Below, one piece after another: positions 3-28,617 of a stretch of DNA of 37,075 bases (position 1 is its first letter; each line of letters opens with the position of its first letter). The stretch comes from a virus: positions 1 to 37,075 of the IMG/VR virus record IMGVR_UViG_3300042691_049757. One strand, written 5' to 3'. The notes under the pieces are model-generated. The model was not told the origin of the DNA. It saw nothing but the letters and a program-made list of their open reading frames with translations, and did not search any database. The position numbers and the translations under genes are program-made.

Positions 3-1244
3 GGCTCGTGGATCGAGGTCGTCGGCCCGTTCGTCACCGAGCCCAGCGTCACGCTGACGCTCACCGCCGGCCCGCCGCCGATCTTCCCGGAGCTGCGCCG
101 TCAGGTCGACGCGCTGTGGGCGGCATGCGCCGCCAACCGGATGATCCCCGACCCGCGCGTGGTCATCTGGGAGCAGGGCGAGAGCGACCTCGGCTTCCAG
201 GACAACCGGCTCGTCGACGAGTACGAAGCGGCGCTGCGGCGCTTCTGGGCGGCGCTCGAGCCGCTGCTCGGCATGCGCGGCAAAAGCGAGAACCCGATCG
301 CCAAGTGCCTCGTGATGACGACCGAGCGCACGCCCTGGGCGGTCCCCGACGACGACGTGCGGCAGCTGCGCGAGATCCAGGCGCGCGTCGGCAACGAGCT
401 GCCCAACTGCGTCGTGGTCGACCCGAGCAAGCTCTCCCTCGAATACGGCGGCTACCCGAACCCGCGCACGCGCCTGCAGAACGGCGTGCACTTCACCGGC
501 CGCAGCATGATCACCAAGGGGTTCATGATCGACGCGGCGCTGGGCACGCTGGGGCCTTCGAAGGGCATCCCCGAGCACCCGAAGGGCGAGCTCGATGGCT
601 CGTTCTTCGGCGCCGTGAACGGCGGCAGCGACGGTCTGGCGGCGCCGACGGCGCTGACCTTCATCGGCGGTGCTGCCGCGCTGGCGCTCGGCGCCCCGGT
701 CACCGGCGGCCTGGTCGTCGAGGACGGCAGCGGCGTCGACAACGCCGAGAGCCTGTGCACGGTCGAGGAGTTCCAGGAGTTCTGGGACGCCAACAACGCG
801 TCGGCGGCGATCACCAACGCGTCGGAGGTTCGCATCGCCGCGGCGCTGCGGCGGGCGACGCGCGAGTGGATCCTCGGCGTATGCGGCAACCGCTGGCGCG
901 GCCGCATCCAGTACCTGAACCAGCGCCTGCCGTTCCCGCGCTACGGCTGCTACGACGACGACAACCGCCTCGTACCGACGGGCAGCATCCCTTGGCAGCT
1001 AGTGCACGCCACCTGTCTTGTGGCCGGGCACCTGATCGAAGGCGGCTCGGTGCTCGCGAACGGCGTCGCGCAGGGCGCGATCACCCGCGAGACGAAGAAG
1101 GGCGGCGGCTTCGAGAAGACCATCGAGTACGCCGAGCCGGCGAGCGGCGGCGGCAGCGGCGTCACGCGCCTGCGCGCCGCGGAGGCCCTGGTCGCGACGT
1201 TCATGGCCGGCAACAGCGGCGGCAACGCGGTGGGGCGGTCGTGA
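3..1244 (+). CDS. SGNH/SASA-type esterase domain fused to head-tail connector (5' partial)
   Basis: The frame is open from the first bases, so the start lies left of the window; 413 residues are visible. The first about 200 visible residues look like a sialate O-acetylesterase-type SGNH hydrolase: a VVIWEQGESD block (family block with GQGESD/N), then LVMTTERTP, and near visible residue 160 the C-terminal block QNGVHFTG, where active members have D-x-x-H. Here the Asp is Asn. An Ala/Gly-rich linker follows. The last about 165 residues (CTVEEFQEFWDANNASA..., AALRRATREWI, NQRLPFPR, IPWQLVHATCLVAGHL) resemble the DnaT-like head-tail connector family that closes the portal ring. The next gene starts inside its stop codon. 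Connector role is supported by position before head-closure and tail genes; the esterase activity is inferred and may be lost. Confidence 0.7.
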   Translation, partial: GSWIEVVGPFVTEPSVTLTLTAGPPPIFPELRRQVDALWAACAANRMIPDPRVVIWEQGESDLGFQDNRLVDEYEAALRRFWAALEPLLGMRGKSENPIAKCLVMTTERTPWAVPDDDVRQLREIQARVGNELPNCVVVDPSKLSLEYGGYPNPRTRLQNGVHFTGRSMITKGFMIDAALGTLGPSKGIPEHPKGELDGSFFGAVNGGSDGLAAPTALTFIGGAAALALGAPVTGGLVVEDGSGVDNAESLCTVEEFQEFWDANNASAAITNASEVRIAAALRRATREWILGVCGNRWRGRIQYLNQRLPFPRYGCYDDDNRLVPTGSIPWQLVHATCLVAGHLIEGGSVLANGVAQGAITRETKKGGGFEKTIEYAEPASGGGSGVTRLRAAEALVATFMAGNSGGNAVGRS

Positions 1245-1621
1245 CGCTCGGCCAGGAGTTCGCGGACTTCGCCGCCGAGCTCGTCGATGGCGAGTTCGGC
1301 TGCACGCTGCAGTGGCGCAGCGTCACCCGCACCGAGAACCGCTCGACCGGTGCTGTCACCGAGGCGTCGGCGACCTACACGATCCGCGCCGCGATCACCG
1401 ACCCGGTGCGCACGCGGCTGTTCGGCGAGTCGACGCTGCAGCAGGCGCGCAGTGCGGTGCTGCTGCTGCCCAGCGTGCCGTTCGTGCCGGCGGTGCTCGA
1501 CCAGGTCGAGATCACGCCCGGGCGCTGGCTCGCCGTCGTCGACGTGAAGGAGATCCTCGGCCCCGGCGAGGGTGGCCCGCCGGTGCTGATCGCCTACGCG
1601 GCCGCGCTGGGGGCGACGTGA
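1241..1621 (+). CDS. Putative head-closure / head-tail joining protein
   Basis: A 126-residue protein starting at GTG that overlaps the previous stop by four bases (GTGA) and ends with the same overlap into the next gene. It is small and beta-rich in appearance (TIRAAITDPVRTRLFG, AVLLLPSVPFVP, VEITPGRWLAVVDVKEI). No motif names its family with certainty. Its place between connector and gp10-like neck protein is where siphophages of this order encode the head-closure or stopper protein that seals the capsid after packaging. The function is therefore from gene order, not from sequence motifs. Confidence 0.6.
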   Translation: MTLGQEFADFAAELVDGEFGCTLQWRSVTRTENRSTGAVTEASATYTIRAAITDPVRTRLFGESTLQQARSAVLLLPSVPFVPAVLDQVEITPGRWLAVVDVKEILGPGEGGPPVLIAYAAALGAT

Positions 1622-2109
1622 GCCCGAAGGAGTATGCGAGCTACCTGCGGAAGCAGGCGCAGGTGATCCCCGAAGCGGTGGTGATGCCGTCGTTCCGGCG
1701 CCGTGCGTTCAAGGTGCTCGAGCTGGCGATCCAGAACACGCCGGTCAACTTCGGCAACCTGCGCAACGGCTGGCACCTGACGATCGGCGCGCCGAGCAAG
1801 GAGGACCGCGCCGGCGGCAAGTCGGCGGCCGGCGTGCTGTCGGCGGGGAAGGCGGTGATCGAGAAGCTGCGCTTCGGCCAGGGCATCTGGATCCAGAACA
1901 ACGTGCCCTACGCGCGCGTCTACGAGGATGGGTTGTTCCAGCCGCCGGACCCGGGGCCGAGCAAGGCGTCGCACGTGCCGAAGTCGCGTCGGAAGCGCGT
2001 GGCGGGGAACATCCTGATCGAGGGAGGGTTCAGTCGGAGCGCGCCGAACGGCATGCTCGCCGACGCGGTGCAACAGGTCGCCGAGCTGGCGCGGGCGGGG
2101 CAGCTGTGA
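1618..2109 (+). CDS. HK97 gp10-like neck / tail completion protein
   Basis: A 163-residue protein starting at GTG (overlap GTGA with the upstream stop). The pattern is that of the HK97 gp10 family: an N-terminal helix, then TPVNFGNLRNGWHLTIG (family pattern TPV-x-T-G-x-L-R-x-S), and WIQNNVPYARVYEDG (family pattern N-x-x-x-YA-x-x-x-E-x-G). These proteins sit at the neck and take part in joining the tail to the head. The C-terminus is basic (SRRKRVAGN) and ends in a helix. The family assignment is good; which neck ring it forms is inferred from synteny. Confidence 0.8.
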   Translation: MSPKEYASYLRKQAQVIPEAVVMPSFRRRAFKVLELAIQNTPVNFGNLRNGWHLTIGAPSKEDRAGGKSAAGVLSAGKAVIEKLRFGQGIWIQNNVPYARVYEDGLFQPPDPGPSKASHVPKSRRKRVAGNILIEGGFSRSAPNGMLADAVQQVAELARAGQL

Positions 2110-2924
2110 CGGTCGCCGCGGTCGAGAACGCGCTGCGCGTCGCCGCCTCGAACTGGGCCGGCAAGAACGGCTTCGCGTTCGCGTGGGACAACGGCCCGGT
2201 GGTCGACCCGACGACGGTGCCGACGCTGGTCTGGTCGTTCCAGGTCGCCGACGAAGGACCGCGCACGATCGGCACGGTGGTGGCGCGAGGCTTCGCCGTC
2301 GGCACCGTCTACCTGCCGGCCGGACGCGGGGCATTCGCGCTGCTGCAGGTCGCCGAGAACCTGCGCGACACACTCGCGGGGGGCACGTTCGGCGGCGGCA
2401 CGGTCGAGCCCGACGTGCAGATCGGCCAGGTGCAGCGCGACGGCACCAGCGTCGTCATCGAGGTCTCGTTCCCGTGGGAACTGGACGAGGCGCGCCGCAT
2501 CGTCGGCCCGATCGGGCCCCAGGGCGAAGCGTCGGCGTCGCTTGCCTACCAGGCGTTCCGCGAGCGCTGGGACGCGCTGGTGCGGCAGCCGCTCGGCCTG
2601 CGGTCGTTCTTCGACGACTCGCCGCCGGACGCCACGCTGGCGCCGCCGTGGTGTCTGGCCAGCTGGCGCACGCTGGCGCCGGTGCAGCTCGAGGGCGGGC
2701 TGCAGCGCGTGCCGGGGCGCGTCATCGCGGCGCTGAACTACCCGCAGGCGACCGGCGTGCAGGCAGCGAACACCGCCGCACTGGCAATCGAGAACGCCTT
2801 CCATCAGTGCACCGTGCGGGGCGTCGTCTTCGGGACGCCATCCACCAATCGCGTGGGACGCACACCGCTGAACACCTGGCAGACCAACGTGCGGCTGCCC
2901 TTCCACTACGACGTGAGGATCTGA
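2106..2924 (+). CDS. Double-length tail terminator protein
   Basis: A 272-residue protein from a GTG start overlapping the previous stop. Tail terminators of the lambda gpU/DUF4128 type cap the tail tube as a hexamer and are usually about 130-145 residues. This one appears to hold two copies. Copy 1 (about 1-130) has W..FQVADEGPRT, GTVYLPAGRGAFALLQVAENL and VVIEVSFPWELD. Copy 2 (about 140-272) has W..SWRTLAPVQLE, GRVIAALNYPQATGVQAANTAALAIENAF and WQTNVRLPFHYD. Both keep the order: framework Trp, strand with G-x-V, Pro-Gly helix of Ala residues, then a terminal PF/PW strand ending in Asp. The duplication is my reading by pattern, without an alignment score. Confidence 0.7.
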   Translation: MTVAAVENALRVAASNWAGKNGFAFAWDNGPVVDPTTVPTLVWSFQVADEGPRTIGTVVARGFAVGTVYLPAGRGAFALLQVAENLRDTLAGGTFGGGTVEPDVQIGQVQRDGTSVVIEVSFPWELDEARRIVGPIGPQGEASASLAYQAFRERWDALVRQPLGLRSFFDDSPPDATLAPPWCLASWRTLAPVQLEGGLQRVPGRVIAALNYPQATGVQAANTAALAIENAFHQCTVRGVVFGTPSTNRVGRTPLNTWQTNVRLPFHYDVRI

Positions 2925-2927
2925 CCG

Positions 2928-4295
2928 ATGGCCGTGAAGAAGAACATCACCCTGGGCTACTACAAGGAGGGCGCGAACAAGGCGGCGCCCAACTTCACCA
3001 ACACGGCGGGCAACCGCCTGCGCCTGCAGCGCCAGGTCAACTCGGACCTCGGCACGAACCTGCAGAGCGACCGCTCGAACGAGATCCGCAACGACGGGCA
3101 GGTCTCGGGCAGCGTGACGACCGGCGCTTCGGCCGGCGGCACGATCAACGGGCTCTACAGCCTCGACACCTACGACGACTACCTCGCGTCGATCCTGTAC
3201 GCCGCCGACGTCAACGACGCGGGCACCGGGCGCGAGGACGGCTGGCGCCAAGGCGGGTTCACGCCGCTCGCCGACATCCTCGCGATCGCCGGCACAGTGA
3301 CGTTCCAGTTCGCGGACGGCTCGTTCAACGGCACGTTCCTGCGCGCCCCGGCGGCCGGCGAGCGCATCTTCGTGCGCGGCTTCGGCAACAAGAACCTCGA
3401 CACCGTCTGGGTGGTCGACGCTGGCGCCACCACGTCGAAGATCATCGTCGAGAACGACACGGGCATGGCGACGGTCGCCGACTACGCGGGAGTCGCGGCC
3501 AACGTCGCGGCGACCGCTGTCACGATCACGCCGGTGAAGGGCTACACGCGCGCCGGCACGTTCCAGCGCCCGTTCGGCCTGGTGCCGATGTACTCGGACA
3601 CCGAGGCGGCCGGCACCTCGGGCACGACCGGCCTGAACGCCGTCGACTGGGCGCTGATCCGCAAGAGCATCCCGACCGGCATCCAGATCGCCGTCGCGCC
3701 GGGCACCGCCGGCATGACGATCAGCATCCCCTTCCTGTCGTCGGACGAGGTCATCATCGAGGACGCCACGTCGGCCTCGAACCAGAGCGCGTTCCAGATC
3801 ACCAACTGGGACGAGCTCGAGCCGCTGAACAACAACCCGCTGACCAACGCGATCCAGAGCGTGCTGATGGTGCGCCTGCGCAAGGTCGGTGCGGCCGTCA
3901 CCACGGCGACGCGCGTCGACCCGCAGTCGTTCAACATCAACGTGACGAACGGCTCGACCGAGGTCACGGCGACGCGAAACCTGGGCGCGATCGAGGTCAT
4001 CGGGCCGTCGGTCGGCGCGACGATCGCGCTGTCGCTGCTCTACGTCGACCCGACGTTCCAGAAGGCGATGATCGCCGAGGACCGCTACGAGGTGGAGATC
4101 GCCATCGGCGACTCGGACGGCAAGGCGCAGCTGTGGCGCTTCCCGCGCAACAAGATCACGAGCCAGCGCCCGAACCCGGGCCTGAACCAGCCGGTGCTGC
4201 AGTCGCTGACGTGCGACAGCGAGCCGGGTGGCGCGGGCTTCATCGGCACCGGGCGCACGATCGAGATCCTGAGCAACTACCTGCGCGCCGTCTGA
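2928..4295 (+). CDS. Major tail tube protein
   Basis: A 455-residue protein starting at ATG three bases after the preceding stop. The N-terminal part holds the tube-protein signature of the Phage_tube_2 type: LQSDRSNEIRNDGQVSGSV, then GGTINGLYSLDTYDDYLASIL. A second beta-rich half (ISIPFLSSDEVIIEDA, NTNITN-like strands, YEVEIAIGDSDGKAQLWRFP) ends in GFIGTGRTIEILSNY. It lies between the tail terminator and the frameshifted chaperones, the usual place of the tube gene. At 455 residues it is long for a tube protein, which suggests extra surface-exposed Ig-like or decoration segments around residues 120-230. Stop to next start is 46 bases, one of the larger gaps in the late operon. Confidence 0.85.
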   Translation: MAVKKNITLGYYKEGANKAAPNFTNTAGNRLRLQRQVNSDLGTNLQSDRSNEIRNDGQVSGSVTTGASAGGTINGLYSLDTYDDYLASILYAADVNDAGTGREDGWRQGGFTPLADILAIAGTVTFQFADGSFNGTFLRAPAAGERIFVRGFGNKNLDTVWVVDAGATTSKIIVENDTGMATVADYAGVAANVAATAVTITPVKGYTRAGTFQRPFGLVPMYSDTEAAGTSGTTGLNAVDWALIRKSIPTGIQIAVAPGTAGMTISIPFLSSDEVIIEDATSASNQSAFQITNWDELEPLNNNPLTNAIQSVLMVRLRKVGAAVTTATRVDPQSFNINVTNGSTEVTATRNLGAIEVIGPSVGATIALSLLYVDPTFQKAMIAEDRYEVEIAIGDSDGKAQLWRFPRNKITSQRPNPGLNQPVLQSLTCDSEPGGAGFIGTGRTIEILSNYLRAV

Positions 4296-4341
4296 GCGCG
4301 CGGGTTCGCTGGTGGTGCGCGGCGCTGGGTAGCACGAGGGA

Positions 4342-4788
4342 ATGACCGATTCCCCCGAGACCGTTCCCGCTCCCCAGGCCGCGCCCGCCCCCGCGCTGCG
4401 CCCCTTCGCCTCGCTGAAGGTCGACCCGCAGAAGGTCGCCGACGGCGTCTGGATCCGGCACCCGGAGGCCGACGACCATCTGCGCGTCCGCCGCCTGTGG
4501 TGCGCCCAGCACCTGCGCGCGATCGAGCAGGCCGCCATCGACTACGAGGCGAAGAACGGCCAAGGCACCGCGCAGACCGCCGAGGGCAACAAGCACTGCG
4601 AGGCGGTCGGTCTGGCCACTGGCGTCATCACGAACTGGCGCCTCGCCAAGGACCCGACGCGGCCCTACGACGCCGCGGCGATGGCAGCGCTGCTGGTCGA
4701 GCCCGGCTTCGACGACCTGAAGGCATGGGTGATGCTTGAGGCCAGCAAGCGCGGCAACTTCCGGCCGGCGGCGATCGCGGGAAACTGA
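4342..4788 (+). CDS. Tail assembly chaperone, short product (gpG-like)
   Basis: A 148-residue protein with ATG preceded by ACGAGGGA. It sits between tail tube and tape measure, the standard place of the chaperone that coats the tape measure during tail assembly. The N-terminal 25 residues are Pro/Ala-rich, followed by a helical body (RVRRLWCAQHLRAIEQAAIDYEA, AAAMAALLVEPGFDDLKAWVMLEASKRGNF). The last codons are GCG GGA AAC TGA, so the stop follows directly on the heptamer G GGA AAC. Ribosomes that slip back one base there read into a second frame for a further 109 residues. Role known from lambda gpG/gpGT; sequence identity to named families is not obvious. Confidence 0.85.
   Translation: MTDSPETVPAPQAAPAPALRPFASLKVDPQKVADGVWIRHPEADDHLRVRRLWCAQHLRAIEQAAIDYEAKNGQGTAQTAEGNKHCEAVGLATGVITNWRLAKDPTRPYDAAAMAALLVEPGFDDLKAWVMLEASKRGNFRPAAIAGN
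4779..4785 (+). promoter_or_regulatory. -1 programmed ribosomal frameshift site GGGAAAC
   Basis: The heptamer matches X XXY YYZ in the correct phase (gcG GGA AAC), ending one base before the 0-frame stop TGA. A slip back one base pairs the two tRNAs with GGG AAA and continues CTG ACC GCG in the frame that stays open to 5114. Directly downstream, TGACC (4786-4790) can pair with GGTCA (4811-4815), extended by GC with GC around one bulged G, giving a hairpin over the stop codon. Lambda uses the near-identical GGGAAAG between G and T. Confidence 0.9.
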
Positions 4789-5114
4789 CCGCGTTCCTGC
4801 GCTGGTGGCGGGTCAACCATGCCTGCATCGAGGGCATGGAGGCGCTGGAACGCGACAACGCGGCCCGAGTCGCGCGCGGGGTGCAACCGCGCCGACTACC
4901 TGAAGAGTGGGTGAAGCGGCCGCGGCTGCGCAGCCACGAGGTCGTGCTGTGGCACGAGTTCCTGTCCTTCGCGGCGTTCTGCGGCGGCGACCCGCGTCCG
5001 GCGGATCTGCTCGCGTGGTTCGCCATGCGCGACGTCGACCGTGGAGAACAGGCCTGGATGGCTGAGGTGTTCTCGGCCCTGTCGTCGGTCGTCCGCGAGC
5101 GAGCAACCCCATGA
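4785..5114 (+). CDS. Tail assembly chaperone, frameshift extension (T part of GT)
   Basis: This frame is open across the slippery site and continues for 109 codons to a stop that overlaps the tape measure start (ATGA). The predicted fusion protein has about 257 residues (148 + 109). The segment is rich in aromatic residues (LTAFLRWWRVNHACIEGMEAL, VLWHEFLSFAAFCGG, LLAWFAMRDVD) as in other T parts, which recruit the tube protein to the tape measure. An internal ATG at 4836 exists but has no good ribosome-binding site, so expression by frameshift is much more likely than independent initiation. The coordinates given begin with the first codon read after the slip. Confidence 0.85.
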   Translation: MTAFLRWWRVNHACIEGMEALERDNAARVARGVQPRRLPEEWVKRPRLRSHEVVLWHEFLSFAAFCGGDPRPADLLAWFAMRDVDRGEQAWMAEVFSALSSVVRERATP

Positions 5115-8100
5115 CTGAGCAAGTCCCCGGCATCGAGCTGTTCCTCTCGTCGGAGAAGGCCGTGCAGGGCGCGGCCAAGTTCCGCGACGCGGTCGAGAGC
5201 GCGGCGCAGGCCGTCGAGCGCATCGGGCTCGTGGTCGACAAGCTCGACGGGCTACTCGATCGCGTCGGTCTCGCGGCTAAGGGCGCGGTTGCGCCACTGA
5301 AGCGGCTCGGCGACAGCGCGGCCGAGATCGGCGCGAAGCTCCAGCAAGGCGGCGAGCAGGCGCAGCGGTTCGAGGCACGCATGGGCCGGCTCGGCGGCAC
5401 GCTCGGCGGAGTCGCGCGGCAGTTCGCGCTGCTGCTCGGCGCCGCGGGCGCCATCAGCGGCATCGGGGCCGCGATCTCCGCCTTCGCCGACTACGAGGAC
5501 AAGCTGCGCATCCTCGGCAGCATCGCGGGCGCCACCGGTGCCCAGTTGCAGAAGCTCGAGGACGCCGCCGTCAACCTGTCGCAGAACAGCCGGTTCACGC
5601 CGCGCGAGGGCATCGACGGCCTGACCGAGCTGAGCCGCGCCGGCCTGTCGGCGCAGGACGCGATCACGGCGCTGAAGCCGACGGCGGATCTCGCGCGCGT
5701 GGGCCTGCTCGGGCTCTCGGACAGCTCGGCGATCGTCACCAAGACTCTGACGCAGTTCGCGCTCGGCGCCGACCAGGCGTCGCGCGTTGCCGACGTGCTG
5801 GCGAAGGCCGCGAACTCGTCGAACGCCGACGTCGGCACGCTGGCCGATGCGTTGGCGAAGACGGGACCGGTGGCGCGGCAGTTCGGCGTGTCGCTCGAGG
5901 ACACGGTCGCAGCGCTGGCGAAGCTCGCCGACAACGGCCTCGCGGCGAACATCGCCGGCACCGGCCTGCAGCGCGTGCTGATCCAGCTGCGCAGCCCGAC
6001 CGAGGAGGCGCAGCGGGCGCTGCTCGGGCTCGGGCTCACCGCCGAGAAGATCAACCCGGAGAAGGTCGGGCTGACCGGCGCCCTGCGCAACCTCGGCGCC
6101 GCCGGCCTGTCGGTGCAGGACTCGGTCTCGCTGGTGGGCACCGAGTTCGCGTCGCTGCTGACGATCCTGACCGGCTCGGTGGGCGCCATCGACCAAGTCG
6201 GCGCCGCGCTGCGCGACAGCACCGGCGAAGCGGCGAAGCAGGCGGCGGCCGGCGCCGACACGCTGGCCGCGGCGTTCGCCGACCTGCGCGGCGCCAGCGA
6301 GCAGTTCGCGGTGTCGGCGGGCCGCGGCGGCATCGGCCAGGCGCTGACCGACATCACGCGCACCGGCGCCGAGGTGATCCGCGTGCTGGCCGGCGACAAG
6401 AAGGCGATGGAGGAAGCGGGGGCGGCGGCGAAGCTGCTGGCAACCGGCCTGCAGCTGGCGACCGTGGCTGGCGTCGCCTTCGCGGCGGCGAAGGTCGCGG
6501 GCGTCATCGCGGGCGTGGCAAACTCGCTGAAGGCCGCGACGGCGGCGACGGTGGTCTACGAGGCGGCGACCGGCCTGGCCGCGGCGCGCGTCGGCCTCGC
6601 GACTCGGGCGTTCGCGGCACTGACCGCAGTGATGCGCGCGAACCCGTTCATCGCCGTTGCCACTGCGATCGCGGGTGTCGTGACCGCGCTGACGGTGTTC
6701 GGCGGCAAGTCCGACGAGGCGGTCGACAACCTCGAATCGCAGCGAGCCTACGCCAAGTCGCTGGAGGAGCAGTACCGAAGCCTGGCGGAGGCCGTTGGTC
6801 TGGTTGCTCGCGGCCCCGGCGAGTTCTCGAACCAGAGCGACGCTGCACAGAAGCTGCGCCAGACCCGCGACGAAGCGCAGAAGCTGGCGGCGGCCCTCGA
6901 ACTGGCTGGGGAGAGCGGTCGGGCACCGATTCAGGCGATCACGGCATTCGCCGAACTCGATGCGGGGGCCGCGAGAATCAAGCAGCTGATCGACCAGCTG
7001 CCAGAGCTGGAGAAGGCTGCGAAGCAAACCGCCGAGGAGGTTCGGAAGATCACGCTGAACCAGCTCGCTGTGAACGAGCCGAACGTCTCGCCGCGGCAGG
7101 GCGCCGACCGTGGCGCGCAGCGCAGTCAAGCCATCCAGGCCGAGCAGGAAGCGGCCAAGGCTCTGGCGGCGCAGCTGAAGCTGATCGCGGAGGCCGAGAA
7201 TTCGCTCGGGATCGAGACTGACGCCGCGGGCCAGAAGGTGCTCAAGCAAGTCGAGGGGCTGGAGATCCTCCGGCGGATCCTGGCCGATGCCGAAGATCGC
7301 GCCAAGAAGACCGGTCTCGCGCTGGAGAAGCTGGGCGAAGGCAACCAGACCGACATCAGCAGCGCCGTTCGCGCGCTGGTGGCCGAGCGCGAGCGCGAAC
7401 TCGAGCTGGCCAAGCTCACCGGCGCCGAGCGCGAGAAGGCGATCCTGATCGCCGAGGCCGAGAAGCGTGCGGGCCAGGGGCTCAACGACGCGGAGAAGGA
7501 GCGCCTCGGCACGCTGGCGCAGTCGATCGTTGCCGGCGAGGCGCTGGTCCAACAGCGGCGGCGCGAGAAGCAGGAAGCCGAGAAGGCCGCCGAGCTGCAG
7601 CGCGAGCTGCCGCAGAACCTCGCCGAGCTGCAGAAGCGCTACCAGGACGAGCTGGCGATCGCGCAGGAGACCGGGCTGCAGCGGGAACTGATCCGCGCCG
7701 CGGTCGAGGCGGAGAACGACGCAAAGGCCATCGGCCTGGCGCTGGACACGGAGGCCTTCGCGCAGCTGAAGGCGCAAGCGGAGGAGCGAGCGCGGCTGGC
7801 GTTCGAAGAGCGACAGCAGAAGCGCGAGTCGCGCGTCGACCGCCGCCAAGGCGAGGCGCTTCGGCAGCTGGAGCAGGAGGAGCAGCTGCTGCGCCTCAGC
7901 GGCGCCGAGCGCGAGAAGTACCGGCTGCAGATCGAGGCTGAGAACGAGGCTCGCCAGGCGGGACTCGTGCTGGGCACCGCCGAGTACGCCGACTACGTGA
8001 AGCGGAAGACTGCCGTCGGCGAGCTCGCGCGCGCGCAGGAGCAGCTGGCGCAGCTCGGCAGCCAGTTCGCGGGCGCGTGGACCAACGCGCTGGAGCAGTT

Positions 8101-8659
8101 CATCATCGACGGCGGGCGGGCGCGCGACGTCGCGCGGGCACTGTTCCAGGACCTGCAGCGGCTCGCGTTGCGGCAGACGGCGGGGATCGGTCTGAACCAG
8201 CTGTTCACGCAGGGGGCGCAGGGGCTGGCAGGCCTGTTCGCTGGCAGCGGCCCGACGCAGAACGGGCTGCCGGTGGCGCCAGGGTCGTCTCTGCCCGACC
8301 TGAACGCGCAGCTCGGCTACAACCCGCTGGCGCCGCGTCTCACCGGTGGCATGATCCCCGCGATGGTCGGCACCGTGATCGACCAGCCGACGATTCTGCA
8401 GCGCGGCGGCAGCGCCTACAGCGTCGCCGAGGGCGGCAAGACGACGCCCGAGGCGATCTTCCGCCTGGCGCGCGACGAGCGCGGGAACCTCGGCGTCGCG
8501 GCCGTCGGCGGCGGGGGCGACACGATCAACATGTCGTTCCCCGGCGTGCGGAACGCCACCGACGCGAAGGCGATGCGGTCCACCTTCGGGCAGCAGGTCA
8601 GGGCGATCCGAGCGGGGGACAAGCGGGGCCGCAGAGGAAGGCGGCCGGCCGGCGAGTGA
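5111..8659 (+). CDS. Tape measure protein (TP901 type)
   Basis: The largest gene, 1182 residues; its ATG overlaps the T-frame stop (ATGA). The N-terminal third carries the TP901 core: ADYEDKLRILGSIAG, then QFALGADQASRVADVLAKAANSS and LADNGLAANIAGTGLQRVLIQL at about residues 215-300. Hydrophobic stretches at about 444-473 and 510-530 could enter the host membrane during DNA ejection. Residues about 540-990 are long Glu/Lys/Arg/Ala coiled coil with repeated blocks such as GAEREKA and LSGAEREKYRL. The C-terminus (GGMIPAMVGTVIDQPT, VAEGGKTTPEAIFRLARDERGNLGVAA) matches the lambda gpH-type end. With about 1.5 angstrom per residue the tail would be near 175-180 nm; this is an estimate from length. 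Confidence 0.92.
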   Translation: MTEQVPGIELFLSSEKAVQGAAKFRDAVESAAQAVERIGLVVDKLDGLLDRVGLAAKGAVAPLKRLGDSAAEIGAKLQQGGEQAQRFEARMGRLGGTLGGVARQFALLLGAAGAISGIGAAISAFADYEDKLRILGSIAGATGAQLQKLEDAAVNLSQNSRFTPREGIDGLTELSRAGLSAQDAITALKPTADLARVGLLGLSDSSAIVTKTLTQFALGADQASRVADVLAKAANSSNADVGTLADALAKTGPVARQFGVSLEDTVAALAKLADNGLAANIAGTGLQRVLIQLRSPTEEAQRALLGLGLTAEKINPEKVGLTGALRNLGAAGLSVQDSVSLVGTEFASLLTILTGSVGAIDQVGAALRDSTGEAAKQAAAGADTLAAAFADLRGASEQFAVSAGRGGIGQALTDITRTGAEVIRVLAGDKKAMEEAGAAAKLLATGLQLATVAGVAFAAAKVAGVIAGVANSLKAATAATVVYEAATGLAAARVGLATRAFAALTAVMRANPFIAVATAIAGVVTALTVFGGKSDEAVDNLESQRAYAKSLEEQYRSLAEAVGLVARGPGEFSNQSDAAQKLRQTRDEAQKLAAALELAGESGRAPIQAITAFAELDAGAARIKQLIDQLPELEKAAKQTAEEVRKITLNQLAVNEPNVSPRQGADRGAQRSQAIQAEQEAAKALAAQLKLIAEAENSLGIETDAAGQKVLKQVEGLEILRRILADAEDRAKKTGLALEKLGEGNQTDISSAVRALVAERERELELAKLTGAEREKAILIAEAEKRAGQGLNDAEKERLGTLAQSIVAGEALVQQRRREKQEAEKAAELQRELPQNLAELQKRYQDELAIAQETGLQRELIRAAVEAENDAKAIGLALDTEAFAQLKAQAEERARLAFEERQQKRESRVDRRQGEALRQLEQEEQLLRLSGAEREKYRLQIEAENEARQAGLVLGTAEYADYVKRKTAVGELARAQEQLAQLGSQFAGAWTNALEQFIIDGGRARDVARALFQDLQRLALRQTAGIGLNQLFTQGAQGLAGLFAGSGPTQNGLPVAPGSSLPDLNAQLGYNPLAPRLTGGMIPAMVGTVIDQPTILQRGGSAYSVAEGGKTTPEAIFRLARDERGNLGVAAVGGGGDTINMSFPGVRNATDAKAMRSTFGQQVRAIRAGDKRGRRGRRPAGE

Positions 8660-9027
8660 ACGGCACCATCCGAGCGGGGCTGTGCTCCCTCCCGCTGCAC
8701 TTCGCCCACCCGACCGGCACCCGCCGCCTACCGGCGACTGCGATCGTCGACACCGGCTGCACGACCTCGGCGATCCGCCCCGGCATCGCGCAGGCCCTGG
8801 GGCTTCCGGTCGTGGGCGCCACGCAGGTCGCCGTCGCCGGCCGGCCGTCGCTCCGCTGCGAGCTGGTGAAGGCGCAGGTCATCCTGCCGTCGGGCGTGAC
8901 CTGGGTGCGCCGGTTGACCGTCGCCGCGATGGACCACGACATGCTGTTCGGCATGGACCTGCTCGCCGGCGGCGTGCTGACGGTGGACCTGGTCGCGGGC
9001 CGGTGGGAGTGGCGAACCCGCGAGTGA
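8656..9027 (+). CDS. Retropepsin-like aspartic protease
   Basis: A 123-residue protein from a GTG that overlaps the tape measure stop. It has the layout of a single-domain clan AA (retroviral-type) aspartic protease, which works as a homodimer: the catalytic ATAIVDTGCTTSAI block with D32-T33-G34, the following helix IRPGIAQALGLPV, a flap-like region around VAVAGRPSLRC, strand AQVILPSGVTW, and the closing hydrophobic-Gly motif MLFGMDLL at about 97-103. Length is typical of bacterial single-domain members. No signal peptide is visible, so it should act in the cytoplasm or in the virion. Its place between tape measure and distal tail suggests processing of a tail protein, which is inference. No other gene in the window resembles a protease for maturation. 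Confidence 0.8.
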   Translation: MNGTIRAGLCSLPLHFAHPTGTRRLPATAIVDTGCTTSAIRPGIAQALGLPVVGATQVAVAGRPSLRCELVKAQVILPSGVTWVRRLTVAAMDHDMLFGMDLLAGGVLTVDLVAGRWEWRTRE

Positions 9028-9057: not shown

Positions 9058-10083
9058 GTGTCGAACTCCTACGATTCGGTCCTCCTGCCGCCGGGTTACG
9101 CGTACGGCTTCGCCGGCGGCCCTGACTTCGAGACGCGGATCATCCCGACGGACGGGAGCGAGTTCCGCCTGCAGATGCGCGAGGACCCGATCTGGTCGTG
9201 GTCCGCGCTGCGGCGCAACTTCGGCGCCGACGCCGACGTCAGCTCGCTGATCGACTTCTTCCTGGCGCGCCGCGGTCCACTCTACGGGTTCCTGTTCCTC
9301 GACCCGCGCGACTTCTCGACGTTCGAGAACCACACCGGCGAGCCGACGCCGCTCGACCAGGTCATCGGGTTCGGCGACGGCGTCGCGACCCGGTTCCGGC
9401 TGCGCAAGCAGTACCGCGACCCGGGCGGCATGACCGCGCGCGACTTCCCGCGGCGCGTCGTCCCGATGCTGGGCACGGCCACCGAGTCTGTCGCGAAGGT
9501 GCTGAACGTCGACGCGGGCGCCGACATCTCGCCGCGCGTCTCGGTGGACGGCACGACCGACACGGGTGCCACGTGGCTGCCGCTGTCGCAGGAGGTCGTG
9601 CTGTCGTCGCCGCCGGCGATCGGCGCGCAGGTCACGTGGGGCGGCTACTTCGTCACCCCGGCTCGCTTCGACGTCGCCCCGGGTCAGGGCCTCGAGGCCA
9701 CGATCTCGGGCTTCCGGGCCGACGAGGCGCCGTTCCAGGTGCGCTCGCTGCCGTTCACCGACCCGGTGCCGCTGGTGCCGGGCGGCTCGCCGTACGGGCA
9801 CCGCCTGCGCGCGAGCCAGGCCAGCAACTTCGAACTGTCGGGCCGCGACGCGTTCCTGCACGAGGTCCAGGCCACGACCGCGATCTCGGGCTACCTCGAC
9901 GATCTCGACAGCTACCCGACCGGCGGGCCGCACCTGCTGCTGGTCAACACCGGTGGTTCGGCGACGATCACCGTGCGCGACATGTTCGGGTCGTCGGTCG
10001 GGACGGTGTCGGCGGGCAGCCGCGCGTGGCTGTTCGTGAAGGAGGACGGCGCGGGGAACCGCACGCCGCTGCTGCTGTCGTGA
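9058..10083 (+). CDS. Distal tail protein, DUF2460 (GTA gp12-like) with C-terminal extension
   Basis: A 341-residue protein starting at GTG. The first about 200 residues follow the DUF2460 pattern: AYGFAGGPDFETRIIPTDGSEFRLQMREDPIWSW is the typical GGP-F-T-I-x-x-x-x-G-E-R strand set, then the ALRRNFGA / SLIDFFLARRGPLYGFLFLDPRDF block. In gene transfer agents this protein forms the distal ring joining tube to hub. Family members are usually near 200-220 residues; here about 130 extra residues follow (SNFELSGRDAFLHEVQ, LLLVNTGGSATITVRDMFG, VSAGSRAWLFVKEDG), a beta domain that recurs in neighbouring virion genes. A 30-base gap separates it from the protease gene. Confidence 0.82.
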   Translation: MSNSYDSVLLPPGYAYGFAGGPDFETRIIPTDGSEFRLQMREDPIWSWSALRRNFGADADVSSLIDFFLARRGPLYGFLFLDPRDFSTFENHTGEPTPLDQVIGFGDGVATRFRLRKQYRDPGGMTARDFPRRVVPMLGTATESVAKVLNVDAGADISPRVSVDGTTDTGATWLPLSQEVVLSSPPAIGAQVTWGGYFVTPARFDVAPGQGLEATISGFRADEAPFQVRSLPFTDPVPLVPGGSPYGHRLRASQASNFELSGRDAFLHEVQATTAISGYLDDLDSYPTGGPHLLLVNTGGSATITVRDMFGSSVGTVSAGSRAWLFVKEDGAGNRTPLLLS

Positions 10084-11192
10084 CCAACCCGACGCGAGAG
10101 CAGGCGTTCTTCGGCGGCTGGCAGACGCGCTCGGTGGCCGGCGGCACGCTGCAGTGGGGCCCGCCGCACTGGCGCGTGCAGGAGATCCTGCCGTCGGTGC
10201 TGTCGACGCTGATGCTGCCCACCGCTGCGCGCGCGGGGCAGCGCGGCGTGCCGCTGTGGGTGCTGAACCGTGGCACCGCGCAGCTGCAGGTGCGTCGGCC
10301 GAGCGACAACGCCGTGGTGTGGACGCTCGCCGCCGGCTCCGCGGCGTGCTTCATGCTCGGCTCCGACTGGCTCGGCTGGTCGCTCGGCTCCGTGCAAGTC
10401 GGCAGCGTGTTCCCGGCGCTGCGGTACACCGTCGAGGTCTCGGCCAACACCGCGAACCTGAACCTGCTCGAGCGCGTGGTCGCGCAGGGCTACAGCGGCG
10501 CGCAGCCGGCGGTGGTGACGTGTCGCGTGCGAGCCGGCGCCGCCGTCGGGACCACGAACCGCCTTGAGCGCGCGTTGACGACGGGCAGCACGTTCGGCGG
10601 CGTGTCGTGGGCGGCGGGCTCGTTCGCGCTACTGGTCGTCGAGGCGAACGCGATGGTCGGCGGATGGGGCGGCGGCGGCGGTCGCGGCGGAGCGCCGGGG
10701 ACCGGGGCGGCGACCGGCCTCGACGGCGAGAACGGCGGCCAGGCGATCCGCGCCGAGATCCCGCTGCGCATCGACTGCCAGGGGCTGATCTTCGGTGGCG
10801 GAGGCGGTGGCGGCGGTGGTGGCTCGTCGACGACACAGCTGACGGTGGTGGGCGGTGGCGGCGGCGGCGCGCGCGGCGGCAACATGGCGACCGGCGGCGT
10901 GCTGCTCGGCTCACCAGCCGGCGGCGCGACCACGCCGGCGGGGACCGGCACGGGCGGCGGGCCGTTCGCGGTCGGCGCGGGCGGCCTCGGCACCGGTGGT
11001 GGCGGTAACGGAGGAACTGGCGGCCTGGCTGCCGGCAACGGCTTCGCGGGCGGGGTGTCGTCGACCGGCGCGGCCGGCGGCGCTGCAGGCCTCGCGGGTG
11101 CGGCGCTCAGCTACCTCGCCGCCGCGGGCGCGCCGACCATCCTCGCCGGCGGCAGCAACATCCTCGGCGCCACCGTCGCGGAGGCCACGTGA
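10080..11192 (+). CDS. Glycine-rich virion protein, adhesin-like
   Basis: A 370-residue protein (GTG start, GTGA overlap). Residues about 1-125 form a beta domain (PLWVLNRGTAQLQVRRPSDN, WTLAAGSAACFML). Residues about 140-200 form a second domain. From about 200 to 340 the chain is a series of polyglycine runs (GGWGGGGGRGGAPG, FGGGGGGGGGG, GGGGGGARGG, GGGGNGGTGG) separated by short strands such as IPLRIDCQGLI, ending in an Ala-rich tail. This arrangement is like the poly-Gly II layered domains of T-even gp38 adhesins and of glycine-rich phage fibre tips, where loops between glycine runs bind the host. The receptor-binding role is inferred. Its insertion between distal tail and hub genes is unusual. 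Confidence 0.6.
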   Translation: MTNPTREQAFFGGWQTRSVAGGTLQWGPPHWRVQEILPSVLSTLMLPTAARAGQRGVPLWVLNRGTAQLQVRRPSDNAVVWTLAAGSAACFMLGSDWLGWSLGSVQVGSVFPALRYTVEVSANTANLNLLERVVAQGYSGAQPAVVTCRVRAGAAVGTTNRLERALTTGSTFGGVSWAAGSFALLVVEANAMVGGWGGGGGRGGAPGTGAATGLDGENGGQAIRAEIPLRIDCQGLIFGGGGGGGGGGSSTTQLTVVGGGGGGARGGNMATGGVLLGSPAGGATTPAGTGTGGGPFAVGAGGLGTGGGGNGGTGGLAAGNGFAGGVSSTGAAGGAAGLAGAALSYLAAAGAPTILAGGSNILGATVAEAT

Positions 11193-12091
11193 CGCTCGTC
11201 GGCGACCACTTCCTGACGACGGCGCAGATCGAGTCGCTGCGGCCGCGCTGCACGTTCACCGACGCCAACGTGTGGAGCGTCGAGCGCACCGACGGGCAGG
11301 TGAAGCGCTTCGCCTCGCACGACAAGGTGATCCGCTTCCAGGGGCAGGACTACATGCCGCTCGGCCCGCAGGCGAGCGACATGGAGCACGCCGAAGCCGG
11401 CGGCGAGAGCGACTTCGAGATGGTGGGGTTCCTGCGCTCGGACACAATCCGCGCCAGCGACATCCACGCCGGCCGCTACGAAGGCTGCCGCGTCGTGCAC
11501 CACGTCGTCGACTGGATGCGGCCGTGGATCTGGCACCGTAGGCACGTCTGGTGGGTGCGCGAGATCAACGAGAGCGGCGGGCTGTTCCGCGCGCAGGTGC
11601 AGGGCGTCGAGCGCTTCCTCGTGATCCCGGCCGGGCGCCTCTACGAACGCGAGTGCGACAAGGTGCTCGGTTCTGGCGAGTGCGGCGCGCTGCCGCGGGC
11701 GCTGTTCGGCGCCACGGTCGAGGTCGTCGCGTCGGCCGGCGCCACGATCCTGGGGCTGCCGCACAAAAACATGGCGATGCGCTTCACGACGGGCTCGTGG
11801 ACGTGGTCGCCGGCGGTGCGCGATGGGCTGCTGGCGCAGGGCGAGGTGCGGTGGACCACCGGCCCGAACAAGGGCACGACGCAGCGCATCGGCGAGCACG
11901 TCGGGCGCGAGATCACGCTCGAGGAGGCGACGCCGTTCCCGATCAAGGCCGGCGACGTATGCGCGGTGTTCAGCGGCTGCGACGGCACGCGCAGCACGTG
12001 CGACGGCGACTACAGCAACGGCGACAACTTCGGCGGCCAGCCGTTCATGCCGTCGACCGAGGACACCTACAAGAAGCCCTCGGAGGTCTGA
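11189..12091 (+). CDS. Tail hub protein, DUF2163/Phage_BR0599 family (GTA gp13-like, gpL-like)
   Basis: A 300-residue protein whose ATG/TGA context overlaps the gene before it. N-terminal strands (CTFTDANVWSVERTDGQVKRF, RFQGQDYMPL) and the C-terminal block GCDGTRSTCDGDYSNGDNFGGQPFMPS are characteristic of the BR0599/gp13 hub family. Four cysteines, C156 and C165 (spacing 9) and C264 and C271 (spacing 7), are placed like the four cysteines that hold an iron-sulfur cluster in lambda gpL. The product should form the central hub under the distal ring, together with the NlpC/P60 protein and the tip protein encoded next. Family call is strong; the metal cluster is inference. Confidence 0.85.
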   Translation: MTLVGDHFLTTAQIESLRPRCTFTDANVWSVERTDGQVKRFASHDKVIRFQGQDYMPLGPQASDMEHAEAGGESDFEMVGFLRSDTIRASDIHAGRYEGCRVVHHVVDWMRPWIWHRRHVWWVREINESGGLFRAQVQGVERFLVIPAGRLYERECDKVLGSGECGALPRALFGATVEVVASAGATILGLPHKNMAMRFTTGSWTWSPAVRDGLLAQGEVRWTTGPNKGTTQRIGEHVGREITLEEATPFPIKAGDVCAVFSGCDGTRSTCDGDYSNGDNFGGQPFMPSTEDTYKKPSEV

Positions 12092-12525
12092 TGCCGCACG
12101 CACGCGAGTTCGCAGCGGCGGTCGAGAGCTTCGTCGGCGTGCGCTGGCGGCGCCACGGTCGGAACCCCGCCGCGGGGCTCGACTGCGGCGGCCTGCCGGT
12201 CGCGGGGCTCGCCGCCGTCGGCATCGAGGCGGCCGATTCGCGCGACTACGACGCCGGCATGCCGCCGGCGGAGTTCCTGTGGCGCATGTGCCGCGAGAAC
12301 GGCACCGAGCACCCGTGGAGCGACTGCGGCGAGGGGCGCCTCGGCCTGTGCTCGTGGGCGGGCAGCGCCGAACCGCGGCACCTGGTCGTGATGCTGGCGC
12401 GGCGGCGGATCGTGCACGTCGACGCATGCGTGCGCCGCGTCGTGGTCGTTCCGGCCGCGTGGCTCGACGGCAAACTCGTCGCCGTGTTCCGGCTCAGCGG
12501 GCTCGACTACGGGGAACCATGGTAG
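12091..12525 (+). CDS. NlpC/P60 peptidoglycan peptidase (GTA gp14-like, gpK-like)
   Basis: A 144-residue protein with a TGATG junction to the hub gene. The catalytic region reads VRWRRHGRNPAAGLDCGGL (Cys32 in D-C-G), and the His block is EPRHLVVMLARRRIVHVDACVRRVVVV (His97 as the likely catalytic His, a second His at 109). This is the order Cys then His of NlpC/P60 peptidases that cut peptide cross-links in peptidoglycan. In gene transfer agents and lambda the counterpart is in the tail tip and opens the cell wall during DNA entry. No separate endolysin is visible in the window. Confidence 0.85.
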   Translation: MPHAREFAAAVESFVGVRWRRHGRNPAAGLDCGGLPVAGLAAVGIEAADSRDYDAGMPPAEFLWRMCRENGTEHPWSDCGEGRLGLCSWAGSAEPRHLVVMLARRRIVHVDACVRRVVVVPAAWLDGKLVAVFRLSGLDYGEPW

Positions 12526-15500
12526 CCATCGCGTTTGCTGCTGCGGCTCCTGCGTTGGGGCTTGCCGGGGCCGGCATCTCGACCGCCGCGACGATCGCCG
12601 GCATCGGGCTCGGCCTGCTCGCCGCCTACATCGACCAGCAGGTCACCTACCCGCTGCTGTTCGGCAAGCGAAGTCAGAAGCCCGACTCGCTCGAAGGCTT
12701 CCAGATCAGCACCACCGATCCTGGCGCCCCTCGCTGGACGGTGTTCGGCACACGCGCTTGGGTGCCGTGCCACTACCTCTGGTCGCAGAACATCCGCGAG
12801 GAGGTCACGGGCGGCACGAATGGCAAAGGCGGTGGCGGTCGCCCGTTCGTGCAGACGGTGCGCGCCGACGTAGGGCTCGCGGCGTGCGACGGACCGATCA
12901 AGGAGATCGACACGCTGTACGGCGACGAGCGGCCGTTCTGGTCGAAGCAGTTCAACCGCGTCGTCTTGGAAGACCATCGCTGGACGATCTCCGCTGGCAC
13001 AGGACCCGAGGCGGGCCTGCTCGTGATCCAGGCGACCGACGCGGACGTCGCGGACTTCGCTGGGATCTTCCTGGGCGGTGACGCGCAGGAGATCGCCCAG
13101 CTGGAGAACGTGTTCCCTACTGCCGTAGGCGGGATCTACCGAACGGTCGCGGTGGCGGCACACAGTGGCACCGCTCGCGCCCGCATCACCCTGCGCCCGC
13201 TGCAAGGACAAGTTCCGGCGGCCGCCGTGGCAGGAAGCGTGTTCGAGCCATCGAGACTTCGGCGCATCGACCAAGGCGGCGCCCATGTGTGGAACGGGGC
13301 CAGCGCCGCAGGCAACCAGTTGCTGCTCGTCGGCCCGACCACGACTGCAGGCCCAGGAGGGCTGCCGCTGCAGGTCGAGCCGACGTTGCCTGTCGATGAT
13401 GGCACCAAAGAGCAAGTCCAGAAGCGCTGGCCGATCGGCGGCATCTTCCGGCTGCTGCAGTACCAGCCCGGCCGCTGGCGACTTGCGGGCGTCTTCGTGG
13501 AGACGGTCGGGCCTCCGCCCACCAGCAACATCCGTTGGAAGTGGGCCTTCGACCCGCTCGACAACCAGCCGCTCGTGTCCTCCGGTCCGACTGGCACGGC
13601 GTCGCTCCCTTGCATCGCCGTTCGCGACGATTCCGGAGGCTTCACCTTCTACGACAACGCGCAGGCGTGGACTGCATACCCCGGCTCCGACGTCCAGGAC
13701 CCCGACCCGACGCTCGCAGCGAGCCAGCCGAATCCGCCCGCGCACCGCGGCATCGCCCACATCTCGCTCGCGAACTGGAACCTCGGCCCGCACGGCAACA
13801 TCTTCCCGCGCACGACGGCGTTCGTGCGCGCGCGCAGTGGCGAAACGGTCGCCGCTGCGATCCAGCGCATCTGCACGCGCACGATGCCGGCGGAGAACGT
13901 GAACGTCTCGAGGTTGCGCACGAAGGTGTTGCTCGGCTACTCGATGCCGGCGGGCATGACCGGCATCCAGGCGCTGCAGCCGATCCTCGCCTTCAACCGC
14001 GTCGCCGTGCAGGACCGAGGCGGCGTGCTGACGTTCCTCGACGTGCGCGACCTGCCGGTGGTCTCCGTCGCCACGCGGCACCTGAACGCGCGCGCCGGCA
14101 ACGAGCCGTCGACGAACCGCGGGTTCGTCGCCAACCGCGTCGACAAGAGCGACGCGCCCGAGCGTGTGGTCGTGCGCTTCCTCGACCCGGCGGAAGGTGC
14201 CGACGAGGCGGAAGGCGACGGCGGCCGATCGCCTGGCAGCCCTGATCGCGGCGGCCGCGACACGCTGGCGGTGGACCTGCGCCCGCTCGTCGTCTGGCCG
14301 TACGAGGCGAAGCGCCGCGCGCGCGAGATGCGCCGCGAGATCCAGCTGGAGAGCTACCGCGGGCAGGTGTCGCTGCCGCCCGGCTACATGGACGTGCTCG
14401 CCGGGCACGTGCTGACGTACGTCTCGAACAACCACGAGGACGAGCGCCTGCCGGGCGGCGCCACGATCGCGTTCGACACGCGGCTGCGCGACATCTTGCC
14501 CGAGAGCGTGGCGCTGCAGGTGCGCTGGTCGAACGGCCAGGTCGCAACGCTGGTCGACGACGGCAACGGCAAGCTGCAGGGCTTCCCGGCCGGCATCTCG
14601 ACGTTCGTCAACACGGTCAACTACGCCACCGGGCGCGTCGAGCTGCTGTGCAACGTCGCGCTCGACAGCGACCACGAGCCGATCCTCGAGTACCGCTACG
14701 AGAAGCAGTGGCTGATGCGCGTGAACCGCGCCAAGTTCTCGGGCTACGACATGACGACGCTCTGCGACGTCGTCTCGACCACGCGCGACGATCCGCTGCC
14801 GCCCGTGCCGCGCGATCGCCGGCCTGGGCTCGGCGGGGCGCTGGGCGGCGTCGTGCCGATCTACCGATCGCATGTGCTCGATCTGCCGTCGCTGTTCCCG
14901 GGCACCCGCTCGGTGATGATCGGCGTCGTCGCGGCGCCGGAGCCTGGCGGCGCCTGGCGCGGTGCCATCGTCTACCAGTCGCCGAACGGCGTGGACCGCT
15001 GGTCGGCGATCGGGGCGCTGCAGGCGAAGTCGGTCATCGGCACGCTGGCGGTGAACAACCTGCCGACCACGCTCTCCGGGGCCCGCACGACGTCGATCGA
15101 CTGGACCACCGAGATGCAGGTCGAGCTGCCGGACGGCTCCGAACTCGCCAGCGTGACCACCGACGAGATCGGCTGGGGGGCGAACTGGCTTCTGGTCGGC
15201 GACGAGGTCATCGGCTTCCACGAGGCCGAGGCAGACGTCGGCGGCATCTGGAAGCTGCGCGGGCTGATCCGCGGCATGCGCTTCACCGACCTCGCGATGG
15301 ACACGCACCAGGTCGGCGAGCGGGTCGTGCTGCTGACCGCCATCGGCGCACTGCACGGGCTCTACCACGAGGCCGGCGGCGGGCTGGCTGCGGCGAACCG
15401 GACCTACCACTTCCGCATCGTCCCGGGCGGCGCGTCGATCGACCAGGTGTCGACCATCTCGACGATGATCCGCGGCAACTCGGCGCGGCCGGCGCGCCCG

Positions 15501-15905
15501 CTGCTCGAGGCCGGCATGCTCGAGCAGAAGCTCGGCGGCTACGTGTCGTGCAGCTGGGAGCGGCGGTCGCAGGATCAGACGACCGTGTTCGGGCCGTCGC
15601 CGCTGCTGCCGGGGGACTACGAGCGCTACGAGGTCGTCGCGTTCAACGTGGCGGTGGCGGCCGGCCTGATCGGGTCCATCGGGCTGGAGGCGGCCATCGA
15701 GGCGACCGCGACCCGCCGCTGGTTCGTGGGCGACCCCTCGATGGGCACGCCGCTGGTCGAGCGCCGCATCGAGTACGACGAGGTCGAGTGGCTGGCGCAC
15801 GGCTACATCCCGTTCGTGCTGCCGATCGGGTTCGTGGTCTACCAGATCGGCGCGGCCGGCCGGAGCCAGCGCAGCGACGTGCAGTTCCTCGTGCCGACGA
15901 TCTGA
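12519..15905 (+). CDS. Tail tip / baseplate hub protein (GTA gp15-like, lambda gpJ-like)
   Basis: A 1128-residue protein; ATG lies seven bases inside the end of the peptidase gene, with GGGGA upstream. The N-terminus is a hydrophobic Gly/Ala segment (IAFAAAAPALGLAGAGISTAATIAGIGLGLLAAY) followed by LLFGKRSQKPDSLEGFQI and the FGTRAWVPCHYLW block, the usual opening of Phage-tail_3/TIM-barrel tip proteins of this class. A middle region (VNVSRLRTKVLLGYSMPAG, AFNRVAVQDRGGVLTFLD) and later hub/fibronectin-like segments (IGWGANWLLVGDEVIGF, WKLRGLIRGMRFTD) match the usual order. It forms the tip that binds the host and leads the tail. It is the last of the conserved hub genes; fibres follow. Confidence 0.88.
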   Translation: MVAIAFAAAAPALGLAGAGISTAATIAGIGLGLLAAYIDQQVTYPLLFGKRSQKPDSLEGFQISTTDPGAPRWTVFGTRAWVPCHYLWSQNIREEVTGGTNGKGGGGRPFVQTVRADVGLAACDGPIKEIDTLYGDERPFWSKQFNRVVLEDHRWTISAGTGPEAGLLVIQATDADVADFAGIFLGGDAQEIAQLENVFPTAVGGIYRTVAVAAHSGTARARITLRPLQGQVPAAAVAGSVFEPSRLRRIDQGGAHVWNGASAAGNQLLLVGPTTTAGPGGLPLQVEPTLPVDDGTKEQVQKRWPIGGIFRLLQYQPGRWRLAGVFVETVGPPPTSNIRWKWAFDPLDNQPLVSSGPTGTASLPCIAVRDDSGGFTFYDNAQAWTAYPGSDVQDPDPTLAASQPNPPAHRGIAHISLANWNLGPHGNIFPRTTAFVRARSGETVAAAIQRICTRTMPAENVNVSRLRTKVLLGYSMPAGMTGIQALQPILAFNRVAVQDRGGVLTFLDVRDLPVVSVATRHLNARAGNEPSTNRGFVANRVDKSDAPERVVVRFLDPAEGADEAEGDGGRSPGSPDRGGRDTLAVDLRPLVVWPYEAKRRAREMRREIQLESYRGQVSLPPGYMDVLAGHVLTYVSNNHEDERLPGGATIAFDTRLRDILPESVALQVRWSNGQVATLVDDGNGKLQGFPAGISTFVNTVNYATGRVELLCNVALDSDHEPILEYRYEKQWLMRVNRAKFSGYDMTTLCDVVSTTRDDPLPPVPRDRRPGLGGALGGVVPIYRSHVLDLPSLFPGTRSVMIGVVAAPEPGGAWRGAIVYQSPNGVDRWSAIGALQAKSVIGTLAVNNLPTTLSGARTTSIDWTTEMQVELPDGSELASVTTDEIGWGANWLLVGDEVIGFHEAEADVGGIWKLRGLIRGMRFTDLAMDTHQVGERVVLLTAIGALHGLYHEAGGGLAAANRTYHFRIVPGGASIDQVSTISTMIRGNSARPARPLLEAGMLEQKLGGYVSCSWERRSQDQTTVFGPSPLLPGDYERYEVVAFNVAVAAGLIGSIGLEAAIEATATRRWFVGDPSMGTPLVERRIEYDEVEWLAHGYIPFVLPIGFVVYQIGAAGRSQRSDVQFLVPTI

Positions 15906-25679: not shown

Positions 25680-25755
25680 CGCGGGGTGGAGCAGCTGGTA
25701 GCTCGCCGGGCTCATAACCCGGAGGTCGCAGGTTCGAGTCCTGCCCCCGCAACCA
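25680..25755 (+). tRNA. Initiator tRNA-fMet (CAT)
   Basis: A complete cloverleaf with encoded CCA. Acceptor CGCGGGG/CCCCGCA leaves a C1 x A72 mismatch; D-stem GAGC/GCTC gives A11:T24; anticodon stem CCGGG/CCCGG has three consecutive G:C pairs (29-31:39-41) around loop CTCATAA; T-arm GCAGG-TTCGAGT-CCTGC. These three features mark initiator rather than elongator tRNA-Met. It is close to the E. coli initiator tRNA, with a D-loop one base shorter. Confidence 0.93.
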
Positions 25756-26124: not shown

Positions 26125-26127
26125 TCA

Positions 26128-28608: not shown

Positions 28609-28617
28609 GAGGGCCGA

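Follow-up and report, generated by a model that had tools for sequence, protein, structure and literature searches.

A retropepsin-like aspartic protease gene between the tape measure and distal-tail genes of a phage lineage

The 37,075-base IMG/VR virus record analysed here (GC 70%; the whole stretch is called the window) carries a tail module in which a gene for a retropepsin-like aspartic protease lies between the tape measure protein (TMP) gene and the distal-tail gene. The window is most likely a temperate phage, since it encodes an integrase (27547 to 28854, minus strand) and a helix-turn-helix repressor-like protein. Three predicted tRNAs (Met-CAT, Arg-TCT and Arg-CCT) stand at 25680 to 26202 on the plus strand, flanked by the repressor-like gene and the HD-domain/integrase region. 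The features of the tail region are as follows.

2928 to 4295, plus strand: major or minor tail protein (PHROG 290, E = 2e-12)
4342 to 4788, plus strand: tail assembly chaperone-like gene (PHROG 8233, E = 0.0015)
5111 to 8659, plus strand: tail tape measure protein, 1182 residues (Pfam PhageMin_Tail, E = 8e-36; PHROG tape-measure families, E down to 3.8e-61)
8633 to 8641, plus strand: putative Shine-Dalgarno-like sequence AGAGGAAGG, 14 bases 5' of the protease GTG
8656 to 8659, plus strand: GTGA overlap of the TMP stop and protease start codons
8656 to 9027, plus strand: retropepsin-like aspartic protease gene, 123 residues, GTG start (Pfam, codon-position GC, profile search, AlphaFold, Foldseek)
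8749 to 8757, plus strand: catalytic motif D32-T33-G34, with D32 at 8749 to 8751
8944 to 8958, plus strand: second motif L97-F98-G99-M100-D101 (the Phi-Phi-G of clan AA)
9058 to 10083, plus strand: DUF2460 distal-tail protein (PF09343, E = 2.9e-32; aligned with GTA-like phages)
10080 to 11192, plus strand: extra tail-module gene without a family, in the interval between distal tail and hub
11189 to 12091, plus strand: baseplate hub (phiJL001_Gp84_N and BR0599)
12091 to 12525, plus strand: divergent NlpC/P60 peptidoglycan peptidase, GTA g14-like (profile of seven phage P60 proteins, E = 3.6e-9)
12519 to 15905, plus strand: megatron tail tip protein (Rcc01698_C, Phage-tail_3)

By sequence, this is a GTA/Rhodobacter-phage-like tail module, canonical except for the protease and the gene at 10080 to 11192; PHROGs also place a tail terminator gene in it. 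With those two genes set aside, the order matches that of seven annotated phage relatives, DUF2460 being the distal-tail gene in GTA-like modules, and Manatee Spring phage has a gene placed similarly to the one at 10080 to 11192. The neighbouring tail genes are intact and follow the order TMP, DUF2460, hub, P60, megatron, which argues that the protease gene is not debris of a broken module. Pfam and PHROGs recognised no NlpC/P60 gene in the window, the frame at 12091 to 12525 included. The idea that the protease substitutes for the NlpC/P60 enzyme of GTA g14 was ruled out by the divergent P60 gene that the seven-protein profile identified there.

The protease frame translates in full to 123 residues, VNGTIRAGLCSLPLHFAHPTGTRRLPATAIVDTGCTTSAIRPGIAQALGLPVVGATQVAVAGRPSLRCELVKAQVILPSGVTWVRRLTVAAMDHDMLFGMDLLAGGVLTVDLVAGRWEWRTRE, including AIVDTGCTTSAI. 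Its GTG start (8656 to 8658) overlaps the TGA of the TMP gene (8657 to 8659). GC content at codon positions 1, 2 and 3 is 0.72, 0.55 and 0.96, resembling the adjoining tail genes, and the same frame 5' of the start (7942 to 8655) has the values 0.94, 0.72 and 0.53 of non-coding DNA; together these indicate a real gene that starts at or near the 8656 overlap. The gene is complete and has coding composition. A sequence-only reading of this DNA had described a complete single-domain DTG protease between tape measure and distal tail, coupled to the tape measure by a GTGA overlap, and both observations are confirmed, the overlap directly in the sequence and the genes by the Pfam and profile matches of the protease and by PhageMin_Tail and DUF2460 on either side. 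The gene thus lies co-oriented in the tail operon and overlaps the TMP stop codon, an arrangement expected of a tail maturation protease. A 12-base direct repeat, ATCCGAGCGGGG, flanks the junction of the two genes (8606 to 8617 and 8668 to 8679); 12-mers repeated within 80 bases begin at only 13 positions of the window, and this repeat is possibly an insertion scar.

Sequence and predicted fold both identify the product as a retropepsin. It exceeds the curated cut-offs of Pfam Asp_protease_2 (PF13650; E = 6.4e-7, 30.4 bits against 24.3) and gag-asp_proteas (PF13975; E = 2.1e-6, 28.7 bits against 28.2), and scores 22.1 bits with NCBIfam TIGR03698 (clan_AA_DTGF), below the cut-off of 57.35. When 34 other retropepsins were made into a profile that excluded the window protein, this profile matched it at E = 6e-13 and matched nothing else in the window. 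In an alignment of 30 sequences D32 and G34 are invariant, as are G99, M100 and D101 of the second motif. The sequence-only reading had named a predicted fold other than a retropepsin as refuting it, and the prediction came out in its favour: AlphaFold gave a mean pLDDT of 84.2 from 7 aligned sequences, rising to 87.1 when 30 were used, and the model is a one-lobe retropepsin fold within the usual size of about 100 to 130 residues. In Foldseek searches of the PDB it matched Ddi1 (best), XMRV, RSV, EIAV, M-PMV and Rickettsia APRc at probability 1.00, with TM scores of about 0.5 to 0.64 to Ddi1 and the retroviral proteases. A phmmer search of PDB sequences aligned yeast Ddi1 across D-T-G and the second motif, at an E-value of only about 0.5. 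As a single-domain protein the protease should work as a homodimer to which each chain contributes one D-T-G aspartate, and its sequence suggests that it is proteolytically active.

Homologues closest to the window protease are retropepsins carried by bacteria and phages, about 150 to 200 residues long and many with a terminal SEC-C motif. Their genes do not count among tail genes, and nearly all stand second in a bacterial DUF5678-retropepsin pair. Homology scans retrieved 33 viral and bacterial contigs (L187 to L219), and in 32 of these, as in a further contig (L014), a gene of about 80 residues matching or resembling DUF5678 (PF18929) stands directly upstream; the lone exception, L204, has a lipoprotein-like retropepsin. 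This two-gene cassette is widespread in bacteria and present in some phages (L014:2116-2897, L187 to L219 except L204, L003:7615-8411 and L186). The L190 retropepsin matches the PADLOC candidate defence protein PDC-M08B at 7e-6. The window protease had no match among the PADLOC models, and a DUF5678-like partner is absent from all six frames of the window (E of 7 or worse); the gene was therefore rejected as a member of the pair.

The DUF5678-linked retropepsins are nevertheless its nearest relatives by sequence (23 to 31% identity, with the profile match given above), sharing the catalytic motifs and an ILPxxV...D.LxGMD block. Unlike them, the window protease has no partner gene and lacks the AFT segment at the N-terminus as well as the SEC-C-bearing extension at the C-terminus; it has V31 where a W is nearly invariant and C35 where they have A, and its gene is in a tail operon. 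The Ddi1 domain and retroviral proteases (PDB 5yq8, 7d66, 3sm1, 1bai) have the same fold, length and D-T-G position, but are only about 13 to 23% identical to it and belong to a eukaryotic or retroviral context with other substrates and regulation. The fold search also found single-domain retropepsin-like proteins of bacteria, Rickettsia APRc/RC1339 (PDB 5c9f, 5c9b) and Pseudomonas RloA (PDB 9g58); these are cellular proteases without a role in phage assembly, unlike the role proposed below. PMC4140852 reports APRc, and PMC12239564 reports the Pseudomonas enzymes. Prohead maturation proteases of the S78 type (e.g. L188:1393-1977) are, like the window protease, encoded by phages among late structural genes, but they are serine enzymes of the head module, unrelated to it in sequence and fold.

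Retropepsins in phages are already known. Leptospira LE1 phages carry both genes of the DUF5678 pair, outside a tail module. The phage contig L188 encodes an S78 prohead protease, a portal and capsid proteins; at 3320 to 6438 it has a shortened tail-tip ORF of 353 residues, after which come a D-S-G retropepsin gene and a DUF5678-retropepsin pair, in that order. Such genes in LE1 phages and L188 indicate that phages acquire DUF5678-linked retropepsins as cargo. BFVD has retropepsin-like entries from further tailed phages (A0A8S5LJK9, A0A8D9CEF2). The crAss-like phage cr111_1 protein QOR59166.1 (L223:1169-1681; MT774387.1, 51169 to 51681), deposited as hypothetical, is a membrane-anchored retropepsin-like protein with the motifs FLVDTGANSCYLD...HGVLGIPFL, and its gene adjoins a dUTPase gene in an early/metabolic block. 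Like the window protease, these proteins occur in tailed phages, but none of those of cr111_1, BFVD and LE1 was seen between tape measure and distal tail. We met this position nowhere else, and a search of the literature on retropepsins or aspartic proteases with phage tails or tape measures found no description of such a protease.

The sequence-only reading had suggested checking whether related phages have the gene in this position, and this part of its case did not hold outside the phage's own lineage. A set of 133 related tail loci, made up of annotated phages, 80 viral hub loci and bacterial DUF2460 loci, contains no retropepsin; of the 129 DUF2460 matches in it, 122 have 800 bases or more of sequence upstream. 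TMP and DUF2460 directly adjoin in six of the seven annotated phage relatives, and in the seventh, Brevundimonas phage Domovoi, an unrelated 596-residue ORF separates them. Across 80 bacterial genomes with DUF2460, no Asp_protease_2 stood beside DUF2460 among the matches listed, the closest pair among them being about 15 kb apart (G344). The protease gave no match in a single-protein scan of GTDB contigs or in tblastn against plasmids, and tblastn against phages gave only weak matches (best E about 0.1), LE1 phages among them. When viral contigs were scanned at the DNA level for DTG...GxD patterns written in high-GC codons, the in-frame matches were nearly all other proteins (capsid, tail-tip and terminase-like ORFs), and true retropepsins came only from the window lineage and L014. 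Absence from all 133 related tail loci marks the protease as a lineage-specific addition, so far as these comparisons reach.

In IMG/VR, searches with the TMP, DUF2460 and the protease brought up two contigs of this lineage and no others. L032 is 99.55% identical to the window and, as the sole other sequence covering the protease gene, is identical there. Of the 46 differences between the two, 45 fall at 1969 to 2700 of the window, within or just 5' of the tail terminator gene, in what is a recombination patch; they are otherwise identical over 10 kb. L184 is 94 to 96% identical to the window and ends within the TMP gene. Compared with the window it has about 860 extra bases (L184:6948-7809, at window 4299-4300) between the tail protein and tail chaperone genes, bearing an ORF of no known family. 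L184 also encodes a 1193-residue protein (311 to 3892), the C-terminal third of which corresponds to window 3 to 1244. About 1000 of its residues carry SGNH/SASA-type esterase motifs (VGDSH, GQSQATG, WEQGESD and GVHFTG) and precede a C-terminal head-tail adaptor Ad1; the whole frame is uniformly coding. The product of this virion gene may be a polyprotein or a fusion of an esterase with a neck-ring protein.

The best single reading, which we prefer tentatively and at somewhat short of an even chance, is that a captured cellular or defence retropepsin is co-expressed with the tail genes and cuts a virion protein, the TMP C-terminus being the likeliest target. A temperate phage lineage would have taken up the gene, probably from a cellular source, namely the pool of bacterial retropepsins, the nearest known of which are paired with DUF5678 proteins, and the gene would have become fixed between the tape measure and distal-tail genes. 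Translation coupled to the end of the TMP gene would have the protease made late, alongside the tail proteins. It would then dimerise and, as virions assemble, make limited cuts in one of their proteins. The first candidate substrate is the TMP, in its C-terminal part, because, by analogy, the TMP C-terminus is cleaved during tail assembly in lambda and T5, as documented in PMC10038345, and in DT57C, according to PMC10713586, and a similar cut has been proposed for JBD30 in PMC11445458. In the portions of these three papers that we drew on, no phage-encoded protease is named for TMP cleavage; PMC10038345 cites Zweig and Cummings (1973), whose title speaks of selective host involvement in T5 tail protein cleavage. 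Other long structural proteins would come second, the 1193-residue protein of L184 among them.

Several features count for a maturation role: the coding signal, the family match, the fold, the intact motifs, the overlap and the collinear, intact operon. Against it stand the 133 related loci without the gene, since a gene that every relative can do without does not have to act on the tail, and closest homologues that are not tail genes. We are more doubtful of the narrower proposal of a dedicated maturation protease of the siphophage tail, cutting the TMP or the long fused neck protein as an aspartic virion maturase that parallels the retroviral protease. The main alternative is accessory cargo (a moron): the gene, related to the mobile DUF5678-retropepsin pair, would happen to ride along in the late operon, its product acting on proteins of the host or of competing phages in defence, counter-defence or host take-over, and not on the tail. 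This is a real possibility, if a doubtful one, given the DUF5678-like neighbour in nearly all homologous loci, the family's resemblance to PDC-M08B, the placement of the LE1 pair and of the L188 retropepsins after a shortened tail-tip ORF, and the lack of the protease in every related tail module examined. The window gene, however, has neither partner, SEC-C tail nor PADLOC match, and is tightly packed by its stop/start overlap inside an intact structural operon. With the stop/start overlap, an operon left intact and the partner gene lost, we lean slightly towards maturation.

Other readings fare worse. Small beta-rich domains are frequently reused in tail tips, and with a site among tail genes the protein might have kept the retropepsin fold without need of catalysis and be structural or regulatory, for instance a small component of the tail tip or of a chaperone; this is improbable, as D32-T33-G34 and Phi-Phi-G are retained where drift would be expected in a pseudo-enzyme. 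Manufacture of the protease only as a TMP fusion by -1 frameshifting, like retroviral Gag-Pro, would fit a frame that is -1 to the tape measure and open from 7942, but we consider it very improbable: the last 700 bases of the TMP frame lack an X XXY YYZ slippery heptamer, the upstream frame is non-coding by codon-position GC, and a proper start codon stands at the overlap. High-GC DNA yields many long open frames (211 were listed for the window), yet a spurious ORF or functionless fragment is already refuted, as far as sequence can tell, and close to negligible in view of the match above a curated cut-off, the unbiased profile hit, the third-position GC and the confident fold.

Overall, the sequence-only reading is partly supported: its observation stands, and its aspartic protease for tail proteins is a hypothesis. 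What lies at the locus is a known enzyme family in a position not met before. To our knowledge, the protease behind the C-terminal loss of lambda- and T5-like tape measures has not been pinned down. A protease gene placed just after the TMP gene, with a product that is probably inhibitor-sensitive, would make TMP trimming testable in a two-gene expression experiment, and only a D32-dependent cut in a virion protein would raise the importance of the finding. If the gene is cargo, it would be one more case of a defence-like retropepsin that found its way into a structural operon of a phage; if the maturation reading is true, a retroviral-type protease would carry out virion maturation in a tailed phage.
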